DNA of 63,389 nucleotides from positions 1 to 63,389 of the IMG/VR virus record IMGVR_UViG_3300045921_000040; one strand, given 5' to 3'. Of the stretch, positions 25,216-63,389 are shown piece after piece (position 1 is the first letter of the stretch; each line of letters begins with the position of its first letter). The notes beneath the pieces are model-generated. The model did no database searches. It saw only the letters and a program-made list of their open reading frames with translations, and was not told the DNA's origin. The translations under genes and the position numbers were made by a program. Source of the DNA: a virus.

Positions 25216-25346
25216 TGACGGGGGTGGGGGGTGTGGTTGGGGGGTGGTGGTGTAAATTGACGGGGGTGGGGGTGTGTTGGTGAGTGGTGGTGAGTGGGGT
25301 AAATTGACGGGGGTGGGGGGTGTGTTTGGGGGGTGGTGGTGTAATG
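25216..25346. repeat. G-rich minisatellite, three units
   Basis: Units start at 25216, 25258 and 25305, each opening with TGACGGGGGTGGGGG, continuing in GT/GGTGG tracts and, in the first two, ending in TAAATT. Almost every G is on the plus strand, giving strong G/C skew and many runs of four to six G, suitable for G-quadruplexes. It sits at the point where the two transcription directions diverge. Confidence 0.9.
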
Positions 25347-32658: not shown

Positions 32659-33741
32659 ATGACTGCAGTTACCTTCGGCACTACCGTTTCTCTCGAAGAA
32701 GCAGCTACCCTCATCCGCACCTGTCAGAACAATCGGTTCTTCCTGCGGGGGGAACCCGGCATCGGCAAGTCGAGCATCATGGGGGCCTTAGAGAAGCACT
32801 TCGGTAACGCCTATGCCTACGCCTACTTCGACTGTGCGCAGAAGGACCTTGGCGACATCGCCATGCCGAGCCTCAATCGGGAGAAGCGCGTAATCGAGTA
32901 TTTTCCTAACGCAGTTCTCCAGTTGCAGACTGGCAAGCCGGTCGTCATCATGCTGGATGAGTTCACCAAGGCACCGCAGCCGGTGCAGAATATGCTGCAT
33001 CCGCTGCTCGAAGCGCGCAACCCGCGCTTGGGTGACATCCCCCTGCCCGACGGCAGCATCGTGTTCCTGACTGGCAACATGGCGACCGATGGTGTGGGCG
33101 ATAACATCAAGGCCCACACTCTTAACCGGGTTACGGTCGTAACGGTGCGCAAGCCGACTGCCGAAGAGTGGCTCAAGTGGGCTGTCAGTAACGATATTGA
33201 CCCTGTCGTCATGGCGTGGGTCAACCAGTTCCCGCACGCGCTGGAATCCTATCTGGACGGTGACCAAGACGGCAGTCAAGACAACAACCCTTACATCTTC
33301 AACCCCAAGAAGATGCAGGGCGCCTTCGTATCGCCTCGCTCGCTCCAGCTGGCCAGCAACATCCTCAAGCACCGTGAGCACCTCACGTCCAACGCTCTGC
33401 TTGCAGCCATCATCGGCACCATCGGCGAGGCCGGTGCGCGTGACCTTCACGCCTTCATCCAGTATCAGGACCAGCTCCCTGCGTGGGAGACCATCACCAC
33501 CAAGCCGAAGGAAGCTCGCCTTCCGCAGTCGCCAGGAGCCTGCTCAGTGCTCGTGTTCGGTGCCATTGCGCGTGTGGACATCACGACAATCACGCCGTTT
33601 GTGGAGTATCTCACACGCATGGAGCCCGAGTGGCAGGCGGCGTTCTTTATCAACATGGCCAAGAACCCGGCTAAGCAACAAGTCGCTTTCGCCAGCCGCG
33701 CATTCGGGGAATGGATCGAGCAGAACGCGGATATGCTGTAA
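32659..33741 (+). CDS. MoxR-type AAA+ ATPase, 360 residues
   Basis: Walker A GEPGIGKS (residues 31-38), Walker B VVIMLDEF (about 95-102), sensor region VFLTGNMATDGVGDN and a conserved SPRSLQLASNIL near residue 235. MoxR ATPases remodel proteins together with a VWA partner, which is encoded next. ATG 32659 has AAGGAGCAAACCTC. In phages such pairs have no firmly established role; host takeover or virion assembly are possible. Confidence 0.88.
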   Translation: MTAVTFGTTVSLEEAATLIRTCQNNRFFLRGEPGIGKSSIMGALEKHFGNAYAYAYFDCAQKDLGDIAMPSLNREKRVIEYFPNAVLQLQTGKPVVIMLDEFTKAPQPVQNMLHPLLEARNPRLGDIPLPDGSIVFLTGNMATDGVGDNIKAHTLNRVTVVTVRKPTAEEWLKWAVSNDIDPVVMAWVNQFPHALESYLDGDQDGSQDNNPYIFNPKKMQGAFVSPRSLQLASNILKHREHLTSNALLAAIIGTIGEAGARDLHAFIQYQDQLPAWETITTKPKEARLPQSPGACSVLVFGAIARVDITTITPFVEYLTRMEPEWQAAFFINMAKNPAKQQVAFASRAFGEWIEQNADML

Positions 33742-33756
33742 GAAAGGAGCAAACTA

Positions 33757-34980
33757 ATGCCCAAGATTAGTCCCGAACGTAGGCTGAAGAAGATTGTTAT
33801 TGGCCTTATGCGTGACCCACTGTTCGCCGACCTGTCAGGCATCATGATGCTTGGTAGGAAAGAAGTGGTGGACGACATACCCACAGCCTGCACTGATGGG
33901 CGAGACGAGCTGTACGGCAGGAAGTTCATCGAGAAGTTGGACGACAAGAGCCTTGCCTTTGTCATAGTCCACGAAGCCTTACACAAGGCTGGCAGGCACC
34001 TGCATACGTGGGAGAAGCTTCACAAGGAAGACCCACAGCTCGCCAATCAGGCGATGGATTACTGGGTTAATCTCACCATCATCAACCGCGACCCGATTGG
34101 TGACATGGTAACCATGCCCAAGGAGGGTGGAAAGGAGATTGGCCTCTACGACCGCCGCTTTGCCAATATGAACATCAAGCAAATCTTCGACATTCTCAAG
34201 CAAGAGAGCCGTATGCGCGGCGGGATAGGACGTGGAGACGGGGGCAACGAGGAAGGACGCGCATACGGAGTCGGCGGCTTCGACGAGCACGATTGGGAAG
34301 GTGCCAAGAGCCTCTCGAAAGAAGAAGTCGATGAGCTGGCCAAGGAGGTAGACCAAGCTCTCCGACAAGGTAAGATTGCTGCCGCCAAGATGCACGGCAA
34401 GGGGGCCGGTAGCGCGCATCGAGACCTCGATGAGCTGCTCAACCCGAAGGTTGACTGGCGTCAAGAGCTGCGGGAGTTTGTGTCTGCCACTTGTGCAGGA
34501 CGCGACTTCTCCTCGTGGCGCAAGCCCAACCGGCGGTTTCTGTCGCATGACATCATCATGCCCAGCCTCGTGTCTGAGCGCGTAGACCGCATGGTGATTG
34601 GTGTGGATACGTCAGGGTCCATTGGTGGACCGGAGCTTACCCGGTTCCTTTCCGAGGTCGTGGCAATCGCCGAAACTGTTAACCCGGATAAAGTTGACCT
34701 CATCTACTGGGATGCAGAGGTGGCAGGCCATGAGGTCTATAACAGCGGCACACTTGCTACGCTCGTAAACAGCACCAAACCCAAGGGTGGTGGGGGGACT
34801 AACGTGAGCTGCCTGTCGAACTACCTCAACAAACACGCCATCAAACCCGAGTGCGTGGTGGTGTTCACCGACGGTTACCTAGGCGGTGATTGGGGTGAGT
34901 GGGACGTGCCAGTCCTATGGGCTATCCACGACAATAACAGCACTACCGCGCCTGTTGGGAAAACTATTCACGTAGACTAA
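33757..34980 (+). CDS. VWA-domain protein with metallopeptidase-like N-terminus, 407 residues
   Basis: The N-terminal half is DUF2201-like with a zinc-peptidase motif VHEALHKAGRH (HEALH at residues 72-76). The C-terminal half is a von Willebrand A domain with MIDAS residues in VDTSGSIGG (about residue 285) and VVVFTDGYLGG (about 370). A Gly/Asp-rich linker lies between. It pairs with the MoxR ATPase upstream. Intact HExxH suggests metal binding; peptidase activity is untested. Confidence 0.88.
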   Translation: MPKISPERRLKKIVIGLMRDPLFADLSGIMMLGRKEVVDDIPTACTDGRDELYGRKFIEKLDDKSLAFVIVHEALHKAGRHLHTWEKLHKEDPQLANQAMDYWVNLTIINRDPIGDMVTMPKEGGKEIGLYDRRFANMNIKQIFDILKQESRMRGGIGRGDGGNEEGRAYGVGGFDEHDWEGAKSLSKEEVDELAKEVDQALRQGKIAAAKMHGKGAGSAHRDLDELLNPKVDWRQELREFVSATCAGRDFSSWRKPNRRFLSHDIIMPSLVSERVDRMVIGVDTSGSIGGPELTRFLSEVVAIAETVNPDKVDLIYWDAEVAGHEVYNSGTLATLVNSTKPKGGGGTNVSCLSNYLNKHAIKPECVVVFTDGYLGGDWGEWDVPVLWAIHDNNSTTAPVGKTIHVD

Positions 34981-35876: not shown

Positions 35877-36758
35877 ATGCGCAAAGTTCTAATCCCTATG
35901 GACGTTCACAACGCATTCCGTGAGTGTGATGAAGACCGACAAGGAGATGCACCCAACATCAACCCCAAAGTAGACCCGTTTCTTCACCCACTGCTGACCA
36001 AGCTGAGCAAGAAGCGCCCAACATGGACCTTTGTGTTCAGCCATTCTCCTAACATCGACAGCAACGGCACAGGGTATGTGCACAGCCCATTTACTATCAT
36101 GGACGGCGACGAAGCGCTAGGGCGTGTAGGTAAAGATTGGCGGTACAGAAGAGGCAGTAAAGTCTACACCTACGAAATCTACTGCGACCGCCTGAAAGCA
36201 AAACTAAGGCGTCACAGTACCGCCATTACAAGTGACACAAATAAGGCTGTCAACCTGATTTTGGGTAATATGTATCGTGTGACGACGGGTGAATTTATCC
36301 AGAAAGTCAGCGATGATGCTTACCAAAACCTGAGAAATAAACTGTATGGTTATGAGCGCAAATACACTAATACTAGTTACAGCGTTTACCATCAGGCTAT
36401 GAGCTTTCTGGTTAGCAACTCTGACATGTTCAAGGCCCAATACCCATCACTGGCAAGCAAGGTCGATGACTTAATCGAGGCGAGTAGAAACAAAGATATA
36501 GCGTCTAAGCTGCGGGGGTTTATCGACAACGATGAAATTACACTTTTCGCCGAGCGAGACGGTAAGATTTACACATTCCGTAAAGACGCCAAGAACTACG
36601 ACAATGGACTTTATATCGACGAGCTTTCAAGTCGCTATAAGCAGGCTATCGGTATGCTCAAGCTGGTGGAGAACGATACGCTCATACCCTACGTAGGGTA
36701 TCGAGCAGACGACAACGTCTTTATTGTTTTTGGCGAAAAACCTCTTGACACTGTATAA
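35877..36758 (+). CDS. Hypothetical early protein, 293 residues
   Basis: ATG 35877 with GAGGAGCAAACAG. Basic, Tyr-rich, with KLSKKRPTWTFVFSHSPNID and KLRGFIDNDEITLFAERDGK. No domain recognised. The sequence is AT-richer than its neighbours. Its last codons carry the -35 box of the promoter at 36745. Confidence 0.75.
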   Translation: MRKVLIPMDVHNAFRECDEDRQGDAPNINPKVDPFLHPLLTKLSKKRPTWTFVFSHSPNIDSNGTGYVHSPFTIMDGDEALGRVGKDWRYRRGSKVYTYEIYCDRLKAKLRRHSTAITSDTNKAVNLILGNMYRVTTGEFIQKVSDDAYQNLRNKLYGYERKYTNTSYSVYHQAMSFLVSNSDMFKAQYPSLASKVDDLIEASRNKDIASKLRGFIDNDEITLFAERDGKIYTFRKDAKNYDNGLYIDELSSRYKQAIGMLKLVENDTLIPYVGYRADDNVFIVFGEKPLDTV

Positions 36759-36772
36759 GCGGAGTGTATACT
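36745..36772 (+). promoter_or_regulatory. Early promoter, TTGACACTGTATAA subtype
   Basis: TTGACA, 16-bp spacer, TATACT. The 15 bases CTTGACACTGTATAA recur at the promoter at 48903. The -35 overlaps the end of the previous coding region. Confidence 0.85.
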
Positions 36773-37730: not shown

Positions 37731-38591
37731 ATGATCGAAGCAGTAACCGAAGCGATCCGCAAGATGTCCAAGGACGAGCGGGCCGCGAGCAAAACCCTCG
37801 GCAAGGACGAGGCCCGCTTTCTGGTAAATGCCTACTATCAGATGCAGGAGAACCGCATCCGCGCTGACGGGCAAGTGCGAGAGATGGCCAAGGGCGGCGA
37901 ACCGCATGAAGTGCTGGCGTGGCTGGGAGACATGAACCGGGTGCTGGAGAACCAGATCAGGGGCGCGCTCGATGCCTATTCGCTTTCCACGCCGGTCGGC
38001 CAGTGGATGCGCGCGCAGCACGGGATCGGCCCTGTGATTGCCGCCGGGTTTCTCGCCCATCTCGACATCACTAAGGCACCCGTCGCAGGTGCGTTCTGGT
38101 CGTTCGCTGGCCTCGATCCCGCTAAGTCGTGGGAGAAGGGGCAGAAGCGCCCGTGGAATGCGCAGTTGAAAACGCTGTGCTGGAAGCTGGGGGAGAGTTT
38201 CGTCAAGGTCTCGGGCAACCCCGATGCCTTCTACGGCCAGCTTTACAAGCAGCGCAAGGACTACGAGACGCGGCAGAATGACGCGGGGGCCTATGCCGAG
38301 CAGGCGAAGGCGAAACTGGACAAGTTCAAGATTGGCAAGGGGACAGACGCCTACGCCTGTTATAGCGCTGGAAAACTGCCGCCCGCCCACATCCATGCGC
38401 GCGCAAAGCGCTACGCGGTCAAGATTTTCCTCTCGCACCTGCATGAGGTGATGTATCGAGACCACTACGGCTGCCCGCCGCCCAAACCGTTTGCGGTGGA
38501 GCATCTCGGCCACGCGCACATCATCTCGGTTCCGCCGGGCAAGCCATGGAAGCTGATTGGAACAGGCCCACAGAGCGAGCCAAAGGATTAG
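37731..38591 (+). CDS. Tas-like (IS110/Nop-type core, no nuclease domain) protein, 286 residues
   Basis: A helical N-terminal region (about residues 20-85, with coiled-coil segments such as NAYYQMQENRIRADGQVREM) leads to MRAQHGIGPVIAAGFLAHLD (GIGP at 98-101) and FWSFAGLDP. That is the core seen in the C-terminal Transposase_20 part of IS110 transposases and, structurally, in Nop-domain RNA-guided Tas proteins. The IS110 DEDD/RuvC domain is missing and I see no HNH motif. The C-terminus is basic with His-rich HLGHAHIISVPPG. Ten 36-bp array units start within its last 19 bases and follow on. The gene-array pairing suggests a TIGR-Tas system of the nuclease-less (TasA) kind. An orphan IS110-derived protein is the main alternative. 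Confidence 0.75.
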   Translation: MIEAVTEAIRKMSKDERAASKTLGKDEARFLVNAYYQMQENRIRADGQVREMAKGGEPHEVLAWLGDMNRVLENQIRGALDAYSLSTPVGQWMRAQHGIGPVIAAGFLAHLDITKAPVAGAFWSFAGLDPAKSWEKGQKRPWNAQLKTLCWKLGESFVKVSGNPDAFYGQLYKQRKDYETRQNDAGAYAEQAKAKLDKFKIGKGTDAYACYSAGKLPPAHIHARAKRYAVKIFLSHLHEVMYRDHYGCPPPKPFAVEHLGHAHIISVPPGKPWKLIGTGPQSEPKD

Positions 38592-38942
38592 AAAGTAACA
38601 AGCCATGTGAGCGAGCCATGAGGCCGGAAAGAAACAGAATATCTGAGCGAGCCAAGAGGATTGACTGAAACAAGGCAAGTGAGCGAGCCATGATTTCGGA
38701 ATGAAACACGCGGTTTGAGCGAGCTATGTAGGCTGAAAGTAACAGACGATCAGAGCGAGCCATTCACACCGACCGAAACACGAAAGGAGAGCGAGCCAAA
38801 GAAAGCGACCGAAACAAGACAAGCGAGCGAGCCATACCGCATGACGGAAACTTGATGGACGAGCGAGCCAATTCTTGAGACTGAAACATACCATTCGAGC
38901 GAGCCATAATTTTGGAAAGCAACAATGCTTACGAGCGCCATT
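38573..38942 (+). repeat. 36-bp tandem array, TIGR-like (ten units)
   Basis: Ten units of exactly 36 bp start at 38573, 38609, 38645 and so on to 38897. Consensus: GAGCGAGCCA, eight variable bases, GANN, G(A/T/C)AACA, eight variable bases. The two variable 8-mers differ in every unit, e.g. AAGGATTA/AGCCATGT, TGAGGCCG/GAATATCT, TTCACACC/CGAAAGGA, TACCGCAT/TGATGGAC. A truncated GAGCG ends the array at 38933. Fixed period with two conserved and two variable blocks matches published TIGR arrays (36-nt tigRNAs with two spacers). The strand given assumes co-transcription with the upstream gene. Confidence 0.85.
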
Positions 38943-41476: not shown

Positions 41477-41685
41477 TGAACAGGATTGCTATTGCCGTAA
41501 CCCTTATCGGGCTTGGTCTGACCCTTCTCGTACAGACTGTGCCAACCGCTGCACAGCAGCGTGAGTATTACCTCGTAGCGCAGTGGGTTGGCGACTACGG
41601 TCAGCGGTTTTGCAGGTATAGTAACGGCACTGTGCTGAATGTCGGTGTGAATGTGTGCCCGCTCAGCATCAAGGCTTGGATGTGA
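41476..41685 (+). CDS. Small secreted protein, 69 residues
   Basis: An N-terminal signal peptide is apparent: MNRIAIAVTLIGLGLTLLVQ then a likely cut after TAA in VPTAAQQ. The mature part has two Cys (about residues 46 and 61) that could form a disulphide in the periplasm. An early periplasmic phage protein suggests superinfection exclusion or envelope modification (inference). The stop codon overlaps the polymerase ATG. Confidence 0.72.
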   Translation: MNRIAIAVTLIGLGLTLLVQTVPTAAQQREYYLVAQWVGDYGQRFCRYSNGTVLNVGVNVCPLSIKAWM

Positions 41686-42977
41686 TGACAAACCTTATCG
41701 TTTGCGATGCAGAGACCTTTTACGACCGCACGTTCAGTTTATCCAAGCTTACTACGGAAGAATATATCCGCCACGAGCTTTTTGAGACCATCGGTTGGGC
41801 AGTGAAGGTCAATGACGAGCCTGCACAGTGGTTCTCAGGGCCGAAGCGTGAAGTCAAGCAGTGGCTAGACCAGTTCCCGTGGGGTGACAGCATCGCTGTG
41901 GCGCACAATGCCGCATTCGATATGGCTATCCTTAACTGGCACTTCGATATCCGTCCCAAGAGGATTGCAGATACCCTCTCCATGCTGCGAGCCATTGACG
42001 GGCCGGATGCAGGTAACAGCCTAGCTAAAGCTGCAGAACGCTATGGGGTGGGAAAGAAGGGCGACGAGGTCGTCAATGCGCTTGGCAAGAGGCGGCTGGA
42101 TTTCACCCCACAAGAGCTTGCTCGGTATGGTGAGTATTGCATCAACGACGTCGAGCTTACCTACAAGCTCTTTGAACATATAGCTCCGCTACTGCCCGCC
42201 AGCGAGCTTCGCCTAATTGACCTTACCATACGTATGTTTACGGAGCCCACTTTGGAGCTGGATAGGGACGTATTGGAAGAGCACCTGACCGAGGTTAGGG
42301 AGAAGAAGCAGAAGCTCATGGATGCGATCACCGCAGATAAGAGCGTGCTCATGTCCAACCCGAAGCTGGCCGAGCTCCTTATGAGCCTCAAGGTGGCGCC
42401 GCCGACAAAGGTTAGCCCAAGAACCGGGAAGACCACATGGGCTTTTGGTAAGACTGATGAGGCGTTTAAAGAGTTGTTGGACCACCCTGACCCTCGGGTG
42501 CAGACTATTGTCGCTGCTCGCATTGGAGTGAAATCGACTCTTCAAGAAACCCGCACGGAACGGTTTATTTCCATCGCCAATCGTGGGACGCTCCCTGTTC
42601 CTTTGCGCTACTATGCTGCACACACAGGGCGCTTTGGGGGTTGCTTAGTTGACGATACCCAGGTTACGGTGTATGACCCATTCTGGGGCGTTTGCAACAA
42701 ACGCATTGTTGATGTGCTGCTAGACGACCTTGTGTGGGACGGAGAAGAGTTCGTTTCGCACGATGGTGTAGTTTTTAGCGGGTTTGCAGAAGTCATTGAG
42801 TGGGATGGCGTAAAAGGGACCGAAGACCATGTCGTATTCACGGACGCCGGAGAGATGTCGCTACGAGAGGCAATGCAGGGAAATCACCGCATCAAAACTG
42901 GTGGCGACATTTCCGAAGACGCTGTGGACGCCGCTAGAAAGTTGCTACGTAACTACAAAAACCAAGATAAAGTGTAA
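41685..42977 (+). CDS. DNA polymerase I (PolA), N-extein with N-part of intein 1, 430 residues
   Basis: ATG 41685. The 3'-5' exonuclease domain shows CDAETFYD (Exo I), HNAAFDMAILNW (Exo II) and YCINDVELTYKL (Exo III). The thumb follows, then YYAAHTGRFGG, just before motif A. After that Gly, Cys at 42642 starts an intein: CLVDDTQVTV (block A) and KGTEDHVVFT (block B), 111 residues to the TAA at 42977. The rest of the polymerase is encoded separately from 43580. Frame differs from the following HNH and C-terminal reading frames. Confidence 0.9.
   Translation: MTNLIVCDAETFYDRTFSLSKLTTEEYIRHELFETIGWAVKVNDEPAQWFSGPKREVKQWLDQFPWGDSIAVAHNAAFDMAILNWHFDIRPKRIADTLSMLRAIDGPDAGNSLAKAAERYGVGKKGDEVVNALGKRRLDFTPQELARYGEYCINDVELTYKLFEHIAPLLPASELRLIDLTIRMFTEPTLELDRDVLEEHLTEVREKKQKLMDAITADKSVLMSNPKLAELLMSLKVAPPTKVSPRTGKTTWAFGKTDEAFKELLDHPDPRVQTIVAARIGVKSTLQETRTERFISIANRGTLPVPLRYYAAHTGRFGGCLVDDTQVTVYDPFWGVCNKRIVDVLLDDLVWDGEEFVSHDGVVFSGFAEVIEWDGVKGTEDHVVFTDAGEMSLREAMQGNHRIKTGGDISEDAVDAARKLLRNYKNQDKV
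42642..42974 (+). other. Intein 1, N-terminal splicing part
   Basis: Begins with nucleophile Cys after FGG and has typical N-terminal motifs (CLVDDTQVTV, GTEDHVVFTDAGE). It ends at a stop right where an HNH zinc finger begins in another frame. Length (111 residues) is like that of natural split-intein N parts. Its partner is at 43580-43657. Confidence 0.85.
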
Positions 42978-43599
42978 ATGTCAATGCGGCGCAGAGAAAG
43001 AGATTAGGGTAAAAGATATACTTAGCGGAAGAAGTAAGTCGTGCCGGTCTTGTGCGTTTCGCCTAAGAGCCGCAAAAATGCCTAAGGCCGAAAGGGTAGC
43101 TAGAGCTAAAAAAGCTTCTACCGCCGCCGCTGCAGCGCTTGCTGCTAGGATGGTCAATCACCCATATAGGTTGAAGTATGGCGATGCGTACGATTATTTG
43201 CTGGAATTAGCTTCCAGCGCAAAGAGCAGATGCTGTAACCCTAACCATAACGCATATGTTAATTATGGGGCACGGGGTGTAACTTTTGGGTTCCCATCTG
43301 TAAGCGCTTTCGCCGAATGGGTATTGGATAATATAGGCCCAAAGTCGGATGCTTCGTACTCTATAGATCGTATAGACAACAACAGAGGCTACGAGCCCGG
43401 TAATCTACGGTGGGCAACTCGTCTTGAGCAAGCGCGCAACAGAAGGGCTTACAAAAGAACCAAAAATGGAGAACGTATACGTTATCTAAAAGACCTACGG
43501 CCAGACTTAACATACGAAACAATCCGCATATGGATTGCTAAGGGCATGGACGACGAAGAAATACTTGGGAGAAAAAAGTATGCTCGTTCCAGTATATGA
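42829..43599 (+). CDS. HNH homing endonuclease inside intein 1, 256 residues (start uncertain)
   Basis: The recognisable part starts near 42955: zinc finger KCKCQCGAEKEIRVKDILSG with a second CxxC (SCRSC). The HNH core YSIDRIDNNRGYEPGNLRWA lies near residue 180. No good start is near the finger; ATG 42829 lies within the intein coding region, and its first 45 codons are probably out-of-frame noise. It ends with TGA at 43597 inside the C-part gene. One base fewer in the A5 run at 42957 would fuse it to the N-intein; one fewer in the A6 run at 43572 would fuse it to the C-intein. Confidence 0.75.
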   Translation: MSYSRTPERCRYERQCREITASKLVATFPKTLWTPLESCYVTTKTKIKCKCQCGAEKEIRVKDILSGRSKSCRSCAFRLRAAKMPKAERVARAKKASTAAAAALAARMVNHPYRLKYGDAYDYLLELASSAKSRCCNPNHNAYVNYGARGVTFGFPSVSAFAEWVLDNIGPKSDASYSIDRIDNNRGYEPGNLRWATRLEQARNRRAYKRTKNGERIRYLKDLRPDLTYETIRIWIAKGMDDEEILGRKKYARSSI

Positions 43600-43657
43600 C
43601 ATTAGGAATTGTGGGCCTAGACGTAGGTTTGTGGCCAATGGAAAGTTAGTACACAAT
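43580..43657 (+). other. Intein 1, C-terminal splicing part
   Basis: Block F/G motifs VYDIRNCG ... RFVANGKLVHN, final Asn at 43655-43657, +1 residue Ser (TCA) resuming polymerase at SESINLQNLPR. 26 residues is short for a split C-intein (usually 35 or more). Confidence 0.82.
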
Positions 43658-45352
43658 TCAGAGTCCATTAACCTTCAAAACCTTCCTCGCAAAAGTCCGT
43701 TAAGGAAAGCCATCAAGGCCCCGGAAGGCTACGTAATTATTGACTGTGACTCCTCGCAGATTGAAGCGCGCACCCTTGCGTGGCTGGCTGAACAGAATGA
43801 CCTTGTTGAAGCCTTTGGTCGTGGAGATGACGTTTACAAGATTATGGCTTCGGCCATATACGACGTGCCAGTCGAGGAAGTAACCGCTGAACAACGGTTT
43901 GTAGGAAAAACAACAATTCTTGGTTGTCTTGCCGAGGGAACTTTGGTATTAACCGATAGAGGTTGGGTAGCAATTGAACACGTTACCCTCGATGACCGTC
44001 TTTGGGATGGGGAAGAGTGGGTATGCCATCAAGGATTAGTGAAGAAAGGCATCAAAGAAACATTGAATCTTTGCGGGCTTTGGTTGACGCCAGATCACAA
44101 AATATTGTGCGGGACGCAGTGGTTGGAGGCGCAATCAGTGGTGCAAGACAGCGCTACCCTCTCCCTAGCATTGGACACCGGAGCGGTAACTTGGTTGTCA
44201 CCGGATATGTTAAAGGGCCACGTGGAGGTGTGGCCTCGCTTATCGTGCAGTGCGATTGCGGACGCCCTGAGTACACCGTTGACCGCCACAACTTTAAGGA
44301 CTTCAAAAGCACACGTTGCCCCCTCTGCGGCAGGCGGGAAGGCCACCGCAAGCGGTATTGGAATTACATCTCTGCACTCCCCGACGAGCAGCACAGGGTG
44401 CGACTCCTTAACCGGCTTTCCGCCGCAATCAATCGGTGTCACGTCCCCAGTAGCAGGGCGTACGCCGACTACGGGGGTAGAGGTATTACTGTACACAAAC
44501 AGTGGTGAGAAGACCGGGCGGCTTTCCTCAGGTACGTCCAGACGGTGCCCGGATGGGATGACCCAAACCTCGAAATGGACCGCGAGGACAACGACCGAGG
44601 ATACGAACCCGGCAACATCAGGTTTGTCACACGCGCCGTCAACCATGCAAATAAGAGAAAAGTTAAAATCCTTCAGACGGAACTTGATGACCTACGACAT
44701 CGCCTACGCAGGGCCGAGGAACAGATACACAGTTGCGACAAATGCCGGGCCAATTATCGTACATAATTGCGGTTATGGCATGGGGGCGGAAAGGTTCCAG
44801 ACACAACTGAAAGCCTTTGGTGTAAACCTTTCATTAGAAGAATGCCGCCACATTATTCGTACATACCGGCAAACCTATCCACAAATTGTCAAGCTATGGT
44901 CTAACGCTGACCGCGCATTAGATGCTCTGCGCTCACAACGCACTTGTGAGCTTGGGCGTGAAGGGGTGCTACAATTAGACCTGTTCGGTATAAAGCTACC
45001 CAACGGTATGTACCTACGCTATAACAACTTGCGTGTTGACAATGACGGCGAACTTGTTTATGATACAAAGCAAGGGAAGAGCGTTGTACCTACGAAAATA
45101 TACGGGGGGAAATCTGTTGAGAATATTACCCAAGCCTTAGCCCGCATAATCATAGCCGAGCAAATGCTGATGATATCGCGCAGGCTGCGCGTGGTTCTGA
45201 CTGTGCACGACAGCGTTGTAGCTTTGGCTCCTGAGGAGCAAGCTGGAGAGGCTAGGGCATTTGTAGAGCAGTGTATGCGAACACGCCCAAAGTGGGCACC
45301 AGGGTTGCCGTTGGGTTGCGAAAGTAAGGTGGGAGTGTGCTATGGAGGATAA
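43580..45352 (+). CDS. PolA C-part: C-intein 1, polymerase palm/fingers, intein 2, 590 residues
   Basis: ATG 43580 with GGGAG upstream. The first 26 residues are a C-intein (VPVYDIRNCG, FVANGKLVHN) ending before Ser. Then polymerase motif A IIDCDSSQIEAR and the O-helix start QRFVGKTTILG, split by intein 2 (43925-44767), then CGYGMGAERFQTQL and motif C VLTVHDSVV. Together with the N-part this is a full PolA-family phage replicase. A working enzyme requires trans-splicing of intein 1 (or frameshifting) and cis-splicing of intein 2. Confidence 0.87.
   Translation: MLVPVYDIRNCGPRRRFVANGKLVHNSESINLQNLPRKSPLRKAIKAPEGYVIIDCDSSQIEARTLAWLAEQNDLVEAFGRGDDVYKIMASAIYDVPVEEVTAEQRFVGKTTILGCLAEGTLVLTDRGWVAIEHVTLDDRLWDGEEWVCHQGLVKKGIKETLNLCGLWLTPDHKILCGTQWLEAQSVVQDSATLSLALDTGAVTWLSPDMLKGHVEVWPRLSCSAIADALSTPLTATTLRTSKAHVAPSAAGGKATASGIGITSLHSPTSSTGCDSLTGFPPQSIGVTSPVAGRTPTTGVEVLLYTNSGEKTGRLSSGTSRRCPDGMTQTSKWTARTTTEDTNPATSGLSHAPSTMQIREKLKSFRRNLMTYDIAYAGPRNRYTVATNAGPIIVHNCGYGMGAERFQTQLKAFGVNLSLEECRHIIRTYRQTYPQIVKLWSNADRALDALRSQRTCELGREGVLQLDLFGIKLPNGMYLRYNNLRVDNDGELVYDTKQGKSVVPTKIYGGKSVENITQALARIIIAEQMLMISRRLRVVLTVHDSVVALAPEEQAGEARAFVEQCMRTRPKWAPGLPLGCESKVGVCYGG
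43925..44767 (+). other. Intein 2, in polymerase motif B
   Basis: 281 residues in frame with the polymerase. It starts at Cys (CLAEGTLVLTDRGWVAIEHV), block B LWLTPDHKIL, and ends TYDIAYAGPRNRYT and IIVHN before Cys of CGYGMG. Extein junction ILG/CGYGMG is the conserved O-helix site. Residues about 75-245 are Ser/Thr/Ala-rich, low complexity, and read as an out-of-frame image of the HNH gene at 44023. Confidence 0.88.
44023..44766 (+). pseudogene. HNH endonuclease overprinted in intein 2, one internal TGA
   Basis: In the frame offset from the intein, ATG 44023 (MPSRISEERHQRNIESLRAL, GGAAGAG upstream) opens a protein with zinc finger VQCDCGRPEYT ... CPLCGR, HNH start YADYGGRGITVHKQW, then TGA at 44506-44508. 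The same frame continues EDRAAFLRYVQTVPGW and LEMDREDNDRGYEPGNIRFV to a stop at 44764. The core matches the intein-1 HNH. The TGA splits the active domain, so it is either decaying, read through, or a base error. The intein frame stays open across all of it. Confidence 0.8.
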
Positions 45353-62425: not shown

Positions 62426-63389
62426 TTACCCACCCATAGTCCGATAGAGCCCCAACGCCCCAAGGCCGGTACCAAGTATCTGAGAAGCCATAGACGGGGG
62501 AGGTGCGTACGTAGTCTGCGTAGAGTTAAGTTGCATCGGAAGGCCCCGCAGCAAGTTGCTGTATTGGCCCAGCACTTCCATCGGATAGTCCCGCTGGCGT
62601 AGGAAGTCTGCGTATGCCTGATCGAAATACTGCTGCTGTAGAGCCCGCTGCTCAGCCGCCGCTGCGCCCTGCGCCTGAAGACGTTGAAGGTTAGCGATTT
62701 GCTGGAACTGACCGAGGTTACCTAATGTCTGACCCATCTGACCAGCGAGTTCCAGACCAGCCAGCCCCTGCTGCGCACCAAACTGGCGCGATTGTTCACC
62801 GAGACGCTGCGCTTCCAAGCCGAACTGTTGATTGGCGAGGGCCGCACGAAGTGCTTGGTCTGCGTTAAGACCTTGCGTCTGCAGTTGTGCAGCAAGATTC
62901 TGCGCTCTAGCCTGCTGCTCAGCATCAAGATTAGCCAACGCCGCTTGGAGACCGGTTTGGGTGCCCAGTTGCTGCACACCAAGCGCAGCCTGCTGGTCTG
63001 CCTGAGCCCGTGCTACGTCCACACCTTGGTTGGCCAGCGCAGCGCGCAGAGCTTGTTCTTGATTCATGCCCTGTGCTTGGAACTGCAGAGCCTGATTATT
63101 CACCCTAGCCTGCTGCTCATTGGACAAGTTGGCAAGTGCCGTCTGAAGCCCAGTCTGCGTACCGAGCTGCTGCACGCCAAGCGCAGCCTGCTGGTCTGCC
63201 TGAGCCCGTGCTACGTCCACACCTTGGTTGGCCAGCGCAGCGCGCAGAGCTTGTTCTTGATTCATGCCCTGTGCTTGGAACTGCAGAGCCTGATTATTCA
63301 CCCTAGCCTGCTGCTCATTGGACAAGTTGGCAAGTGCCGTCTGAAGCCCAGTCTGCGTACCGAGCTGCTGCACGCCAAGCGCAGCCTGC
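62426..63389 (-). CDS. Gln/Ala-rich repeat virion protein, C-terminal part (continues from base 1)
   Basis: Stop at 62426-62428; the frame runs in phase through the join into bases 1-1029. It contributes 278 residues after base 63262 is joined to base 1. 66-residue repeats with ANQGVDVARAQADQQAALGV and TQTGLQTALANLSNEQQARV are followed by a diverged copy and a C-terminal region with NLLRGLPMQLNSTQTTYAPP. Likely helical, elongated virion protein. Bases 63263-63389 repeat the window start. Confidence 0.85.
   Translation of the reverse strand, partial: QAALGVQQLGTQTGLQTALANLSNEQQARVNNQALQFQAQGMNQEQALRAALANQGVDVARAQADQQAALGVQQLGTQTGLQTALANLSNEQQARVNNQALQFQAQGMNQEQALRAALANQGVDVARAQADQQAALGVQQLGTQTGLQAALANLDAEQQARAQNLAAQLQTQGLNADQALRAALANQQFGLEAQRLGEQSRQFGAQQGLAGLELAGQMGQTLGNLGQFQQIANLQRLQAQGAAAAEQRALQQQYFDQAYADFLRQRDYPMEVLGQYSNLLRGLPMQLNSTQTTYAPPPSMASQILGTGLGALGLYRTMGG
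62867..63389 (-). repeat. 198-bp tandem repeat
   Basis: Units begin at 62867 (diverged), 63065 and 63263 (identical as far as the contig goes), period 198 bp = 66 codons. Another partial copy is joined through base 1. Exact copies longer than 127 bp cannot be counted by a short-k assembly, so copy number is a minimum. Confidence 0.92.

Follow-up and report, generated by a model that had tools for sequence, protein, structure and literature searches.

The stretch of viral DNA analysed here, IMG/VR virus record IMGVR_UViG_3300045921_000040, is 63,389 nucleotides (nt) long and is referred to as a whole as the window. On its plus strand lies tasA, a gene for a 286-residue protein, together with an array of short repeats and spacers that begins within the end of this gene and continues up to the next one (Table 1). 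The locus is a true TIGR-TasA system, belonging to a family that was known before and that is recognised by current NCBI models.

The array contains ten full units of exactly 36 nt, starting at 38573, 38609 and so on to 38897. Each is composed of an edge repeat (GAGCGAGCCA, 10 nt), spacer A (8 nt), a loop repeat (GANNGAAACA, 10 nt) and spacer B (8 nt), the alternation of 8-12 nt edge and loop repeats with two short spacers per unit by which TIGR-Tas arrays are defined. The motif GA...CA is common to the edge and loop repeats and supplies the shared box motifs, with a box C/D pair, that also belong to this definition. Mean pairwise identity within the window array is 98% for the edge and 80% for the loop, against 25% for spacer A and 31% for spacer B. 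Single deviations occur in unit 5, whose edge is GAGCGAGCTA, and in unit 8, whose loop ends in ACT. The conserved 10-mer repeats over nine consecutive 36-nt steps, while other periods in the window, or 20 third-order Markov genomes, give at most one such step. A preliminary description of this DNA had recorded variable 8-mers in a 36-nt frame that never slips, and these figures bear it out. The two parts into which it divided the loop, GANN and G(A/T/C)AACA, are one 10-nt repeat.

The same description counted ten exact units, which holds for the full ones, but missed unit 0 and the closing GAGCG. Unit 0 lies wholly within the tasA coding sequence and brings the total to 11; a matching unit occurs at the equivalent position in two relatives (loci L001 and L018). 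The stop codon of tasA (38589-38591) falls inside unit 1, as had been described. At its 3' end the array finishes with the truncated edge GAGCG, beyond which lie a ribosome-binding site and the following gene, and the arrays of L001 and L018 finish in the same way. Truncated edges thus bound the array on both sides (AAGCCA at the 5' end, within the gene, and GAGCG at the 3' end), as in the TIGR arrays of Faure et al. (PMC12045711). Searches of Rfam and PADLOC gave no match.

Table 1. Positions of the features of the tasA locus in the window
Feature	Position	Strand	Description and basis
tasA	37731..38591	+	286 aa, Nop/IS110-like RNA-binding protein without nuclease domain; NCBIfam NF052498, PDB profile matches, AlphaFold/Foldseek
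Unit 0	38537..38572	+	Truncated edge AAGCCA (38541-38546), spacer A TGGAAGCT, loop GATTGGAACA, spacer B GGCCCACA; read from sequence
TIGR array, ten full units	38573..38932	+	Edge 10, spacer A 8, loop 10, spacer B 8 nt
3'-truncated edge GAGCG	38933..38937	+	Closes array; predicted 3' end of last guide RNA (tigRNA)
Candidate promoter TTGACA-16-TATACT	36745..36772	+	11/12 consensus bases, about 1 kb upstream; consensus match only

The TasA protein and its relatives

TasA scores 216 bits with the NCBIfam TIGR-Tas model NF052498 (cutoff 100) and 19.7 bits with the IS110 model NF033542 (cutoff 140). As a single sequence it matches TasR (PDB 9mty, TasR according to the structure title in the fold-search result; E 7.5e-13) and TasH (21kl; E 2.4e-11). 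With a 56-member TasA profile these values become 2e-22 and 8e-15, and IS110 recombinases follow at 4e-6 and 7e-5. An AlphaFold model (predicted local distance difference test score, pLDDT, 85; predicted template modelling score, pTM, 0.83) retrieves the same proteins with Foldseek: ranks 1-11 are all TasH or TasR chains (E 3e-7 to 6e-4), ranks 12-21 are IS110 recombinases, and nothing beyond those exceeds a probability of 0.21. Both the profile and the structure comparison had been proposed in the preliminary description, and both agree with its assignment of the locus to TIGR-Tas as a TasA-like system.

No HNH or RuvC domain was found in TasA, for which Pfam gives only sub-cutoff matches to Transposase_20 and DUF4160, and no DEDD or N-terminal domain of an IS110 transposase was seen. 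IS110 transposases are defined by a DEDD domain and a C-terminal Transposase_20 domain at family cutoff; with its low IS110 score the protein does not qualify as one. The match to the TIGR-Tas model begins at residue 28 of 286 and that to TasR after the TasR nuclease domain. We assign the TasA subtype because the HNH and RuvC domains are absent; the preliminary description had recorded an IS110-like core without DEDD, HNH or RuvC parts. The word 'endonuclease' in the NCBI family name of NF052498 is unsuited to this nuclease-free member. The conserved core stops near residue 267 and the remainder is encoded by array sequence; residues 272-286, also array-encoded, have a pLDDT below 50, and the C-terminus varies in the relatives L001, L018 and L019.

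A profile of the gene alone, in which array information was not used, identified at least 212 TasA relatives in IMG/VR. Arrays were looked for at 81 loci (80 relatives and the window). A dual-repeat array on the strand of the gene lies beside tasA in 74 of them (downstream, upstream or both), and no opposite-strand array was detected at any of the 81. Individual loci can be more elaborate. In L064 (the same contig as L004; around 9766 and 10812) a single tasA has two arrays with differing repeats, GAGTGAACCA upstream and GATTGAAACA/GATAGTAACA downstream, the latter ending in a terminator-like hairpin. In L028 (2326-4000) a 94-repeat array of about 47 units, some of which occur twice, lies upstream of tasA.

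Covariation of the repeats and inheritance of the units

The preliminary description had also suggested a covariance analysis of the repeats. Of 18 distinct edge consensus sequences, 17 have the pair G1-C9, as do 22 of 22 distinct loops. Across the 18 edges, positions 3-8 (GC, AU, UA) and 4-7 (CG, UA, UG, AU) covary, together with the nearly fixed pair 1-9, with a score that none of 500 shuffles equalled; in some arrays edge and loop were assigned by their resemblance to GAGCGAGCCA, which may be wrong in a few cases. The loops keep G1-C9 and mostly not 4-7, with much less covariation than the edges. This pattern suggests that the edge repeats form a short stem. In TasR arrays Faure et al. described the box C/D pair and one further covarying edge pair (PMC12045711), whereas two further pairs are supported in the phage TasA arrays.

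Compared with L001, L018 and L019, whose tasA DNA is 75-83% identical to that of the window, the repeats are kept and the spacers are fully replaced; the downstream junction of the array is also shared with L001 and L018. Since these close relatives keep gene and repeats and share no guide, the window array is not static, which contradicts the static binding array that the preliminary description had named as a counter-case.

Groups of closer phages have many spacers in common, in short blocks. Here a shared spacer A is accompanied by its own B in 91 of 100 cases, and a shared B by the same following A in 48 of 101 (Fisher p ~1e-11, for counts that are not independent events). The stronger A-B linkage implies that breaks fall mostly in edges and not in loops, so that the A-loop-B tigRNA unit is an inherited module; it provides comparative support for a paired-guide function in this nuclease-free branch. 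On visual reading the shared units are spread throughout the arrays with no single variable end, unlike CRISPR. In addition, L020, L033, L080 and L092 contain near-duplicate units in which spacer A is the same or nearly so and spacer B differs by 2-3 bases, as if following variants of one target. Orthologous spacers have too few substitutions for a reading of seed positions. We put forward tentatively, and with less than even confidence, the broader proposal that tailed phages keep in their TIGR-TasA arrays a rapidly changing, heritable stock of paired guides. Whole A-loop-B modules would be gained, lost and shuffled, with no CRISPR-like adaptation genes and no polarity of the ends, and the guides would serve to silence host genes or rival phages with no cutting.

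These results also bear on whether the array is a source of guide RNA at all. A satellite or static protein-binding array beside the remnant of an IS110-like transposase might be suspected, as Pfam knows TasA solely as Transposase_20, just below cutoff, and its PHROG and UniProt relatives bear the name transposase. However, the missing DEDD domain and the contrasting scores of the IS110 and TIGR-Tas models speak against a remnant, and a satellite would not be expected to show strictly framed variable spacers, linkage of A to B or compensatory pairs in the edges. We consider this explanation most improbable.

Proposed mechanism and search for targets

Our interpretation, to which we give a probability of roughly 0.9, is that the locus is a phage TIGR-TasA system whose array yields tigRNAs that guide TasA to bind, and not to cut, host or competitor DNA. 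The array is probably co-transcribed with tasA, since the coding sequence already contains the first unit and every array found shares the strand of the gene. Cutting of the transcript in the middle of each edge repeat would release 36-nt tigRNAs, predicted to read AGCCA-A-GANNGAAACA-B-GAGCG, whose two ends (AGCCA ... GAGCG) the edge pairs would join; processing to 36 nt has been published for relatives, including a TasA (PMC12045711). One tigRNA would be bound by a TasA dimer through the two repeats and would pair with a 16-bp DNA target through its spacers, each 8-nt spacer with a different strand. Such dual-strand targeting has been published for TasR and TasH. Having no nuclease, the TasA complex would, we infer, bind, open and bend the target without cutting it and so probably prevent host genes or competing mobile DNA from being transcribed or replicated in the course of infection.

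Several observations weigh against this interpretation. A terminator was looked for 3' of the window array and none was found, the next gene directly adjoining it, unlike typical published arrays; we do not take this as defining because a terminator is described as typical, not universal (PMC12045711). Targets were sought as spacer A, a gap of 0-2 nt and the reverse complement of spacer B, a geometry derived here from the published cleavage pattern (PMC12045711). None of the 11 guides matched either strand of its own 63-kb record at these gaps with 0 or 1 mismatch. Cross-targets among 95 loci, searched in four geometries with wrong-phase pairs as controls, were at chance level, as were targets in phages with 75-85% TerL identity and no tasA. 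The paired-spacer search against related phages suggested in the preliminary description has thus returned chance matches only. Moreover, phages within a group share history, leaving the linkage counts not fully independent, and gain or loss of whole units could hold A and B together without selection on the pair.

Conserved or near-duplicate spacer pairs were also used in three scans of IMG/VR, which returned 13, 77 and at least 120 stretches; none of these gave a convincing target, and no notable cluster emerged from the third. The one cluster, of 17 for GATCACGC/TGACGCGA, was rejected as a target: it falls within a conserved coding motif common to many phages, and those loci are hit by no other guide from the same arrays. 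Host or rival mobile DNA is a possible target.

Two other uses of the guides were considered. The tigRNAs might direct TasA to sites in the phage's own genome and so regulate its own genes; self-binding by a protein without nuclease would not cut the genome, and the neighbours of tasA are DNA-metabolism genes. Nevertheless, besides the missing matches at 0-1 mismatch, own-genome matches at 2-3 mismatches equal the mispaired controls in number and self-targets pooled over all array-bearing loci are at chance level. With matches at chance level in its own genome as well as in the other TasA phages and the TerL relatives, self-regulation is very unlikely. The guides might instead act on RNA, like box C/D small nucleolar RNAs, with whose ribonucleoproteins the Nop fold class and box C/D logic are shared (PMC12045711). 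Against this, TasR was inactive on RNA in published work (PMC12045711), nothing like a methyltransferase gene or another conserved partner is apparent beside tasA, and same-strand A-B matches (own genome and TasA-bearing loci) are also at chance level. An action on RNA therefore appears highly improbable.

What TasA, described as the most common Tas effector, does and where TIGR spacers come from have been named as open questions (PMC12045711). With differing arrays among close relatives, the large family of phage TasA around this locus provides natural variants for finding the targets and the origin of the spacer pairs.

Genomic setting and comparison with known systems

The window TerL is nearest to that of pelagiphage HTVC027P (55%) and similar aquatic phages. 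Among 84,980 bacterial and archaeal genomes, searched with short peptide seeds that may miss members, TasA was found only on four contigs of metagenome-assembled genomes, and a plasmid search for the window TasA branch found none; the branch therefore looks virus-borne. Seventeen contigs with related TerL (several of 60-63 kb, some of them fragments) have no detectable tasA, which suggests that tasA and its array are an accessory module. Promoter-like matches in the region are not more numerous than in shuffles; the candidate promoter (Table 1), judged by consensus, could serve the gene cluster with tasA and the array.

No conserved partner gene was found near tasA in 85 loci, the commonest real family being PolA (20 of 85). 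A 51-locus 'family' was rejected as a partner because it results from reading the array on its minus strand. The window's own phage PolA gene (41655-45352) looks, from its translations, intein-split into two open reading frames (ORFs), which are separated by a free-standing HNH-like ORF (42829-43599); the N-part runs into CLVDDTQVTVYDP... and the C-part has ...LVHNSESINLQNLPR. A second intein-like insert, also read from translations, follows (CLAEGTLVLTDRGW ... VHNCGYG).

Elsewhere in the window (32659-34980) an AAA ATPase gene is followed by one for a DUF2201 metallopeptidase-VWA protein. The latter is named HNH endonuclease in PHROG and several phage records, a name that finds no support in its Pfam domains. 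A G-rich near-repeat (GGGGGTGGGGGGTGTG...) lies within a minus-strand ORF (25216-25344). There are two tandem repeats, of 96 bp (475-684, 2.2 copies) and of 198 bp (62970-63389, 2.1 copies). Since the latter reaches the record end within coding sequence, the contig may end at a repeat break.

Among known systems, the TasA branch of TIGR-Tas with dual-repeat arrays (PMC12045711; for example, Flavonifractor plautii TasA) also has a solo Nop-type protein and an adjoining array of 36-nt units, with edge and loop repeats and truncated edges at both ends, and many published loci are phage-borne (PMC12045711). It differs in having spacers of 9 nt (PMC12045711), as against 8 nt here; in addition, the window array has its first unit inside the coding sequence and runs into the next gene with no terminator. 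The best fold match is the TasH of Salicola phage CGphi29 (SpTIGR; our L007; PDB 21kl, 9w04). Its published 16 nt of spacer per unit equal those of the window array, but it has an N-terminal HNH domain that the window TasA lacks, and identity is about 27%. Thermoproteota TasR (9mty) has a homologous Nop domain (profile E 2e-22). Unlike the window system, it carries a RuvC nuclease domain at its N-terminus and has spacers of 9 nt, and the motif described for TasR arrays is UG...CCA (PMC12045711) in place of GA...CA. Finally, the IS110-family recombinases (IS621, ISCro4) share an RNA-binding core related to TasA in sequence and fold, but carry a DEDD domain and use a bridge RNA, and the window TasA is below the IS110 cutoff.
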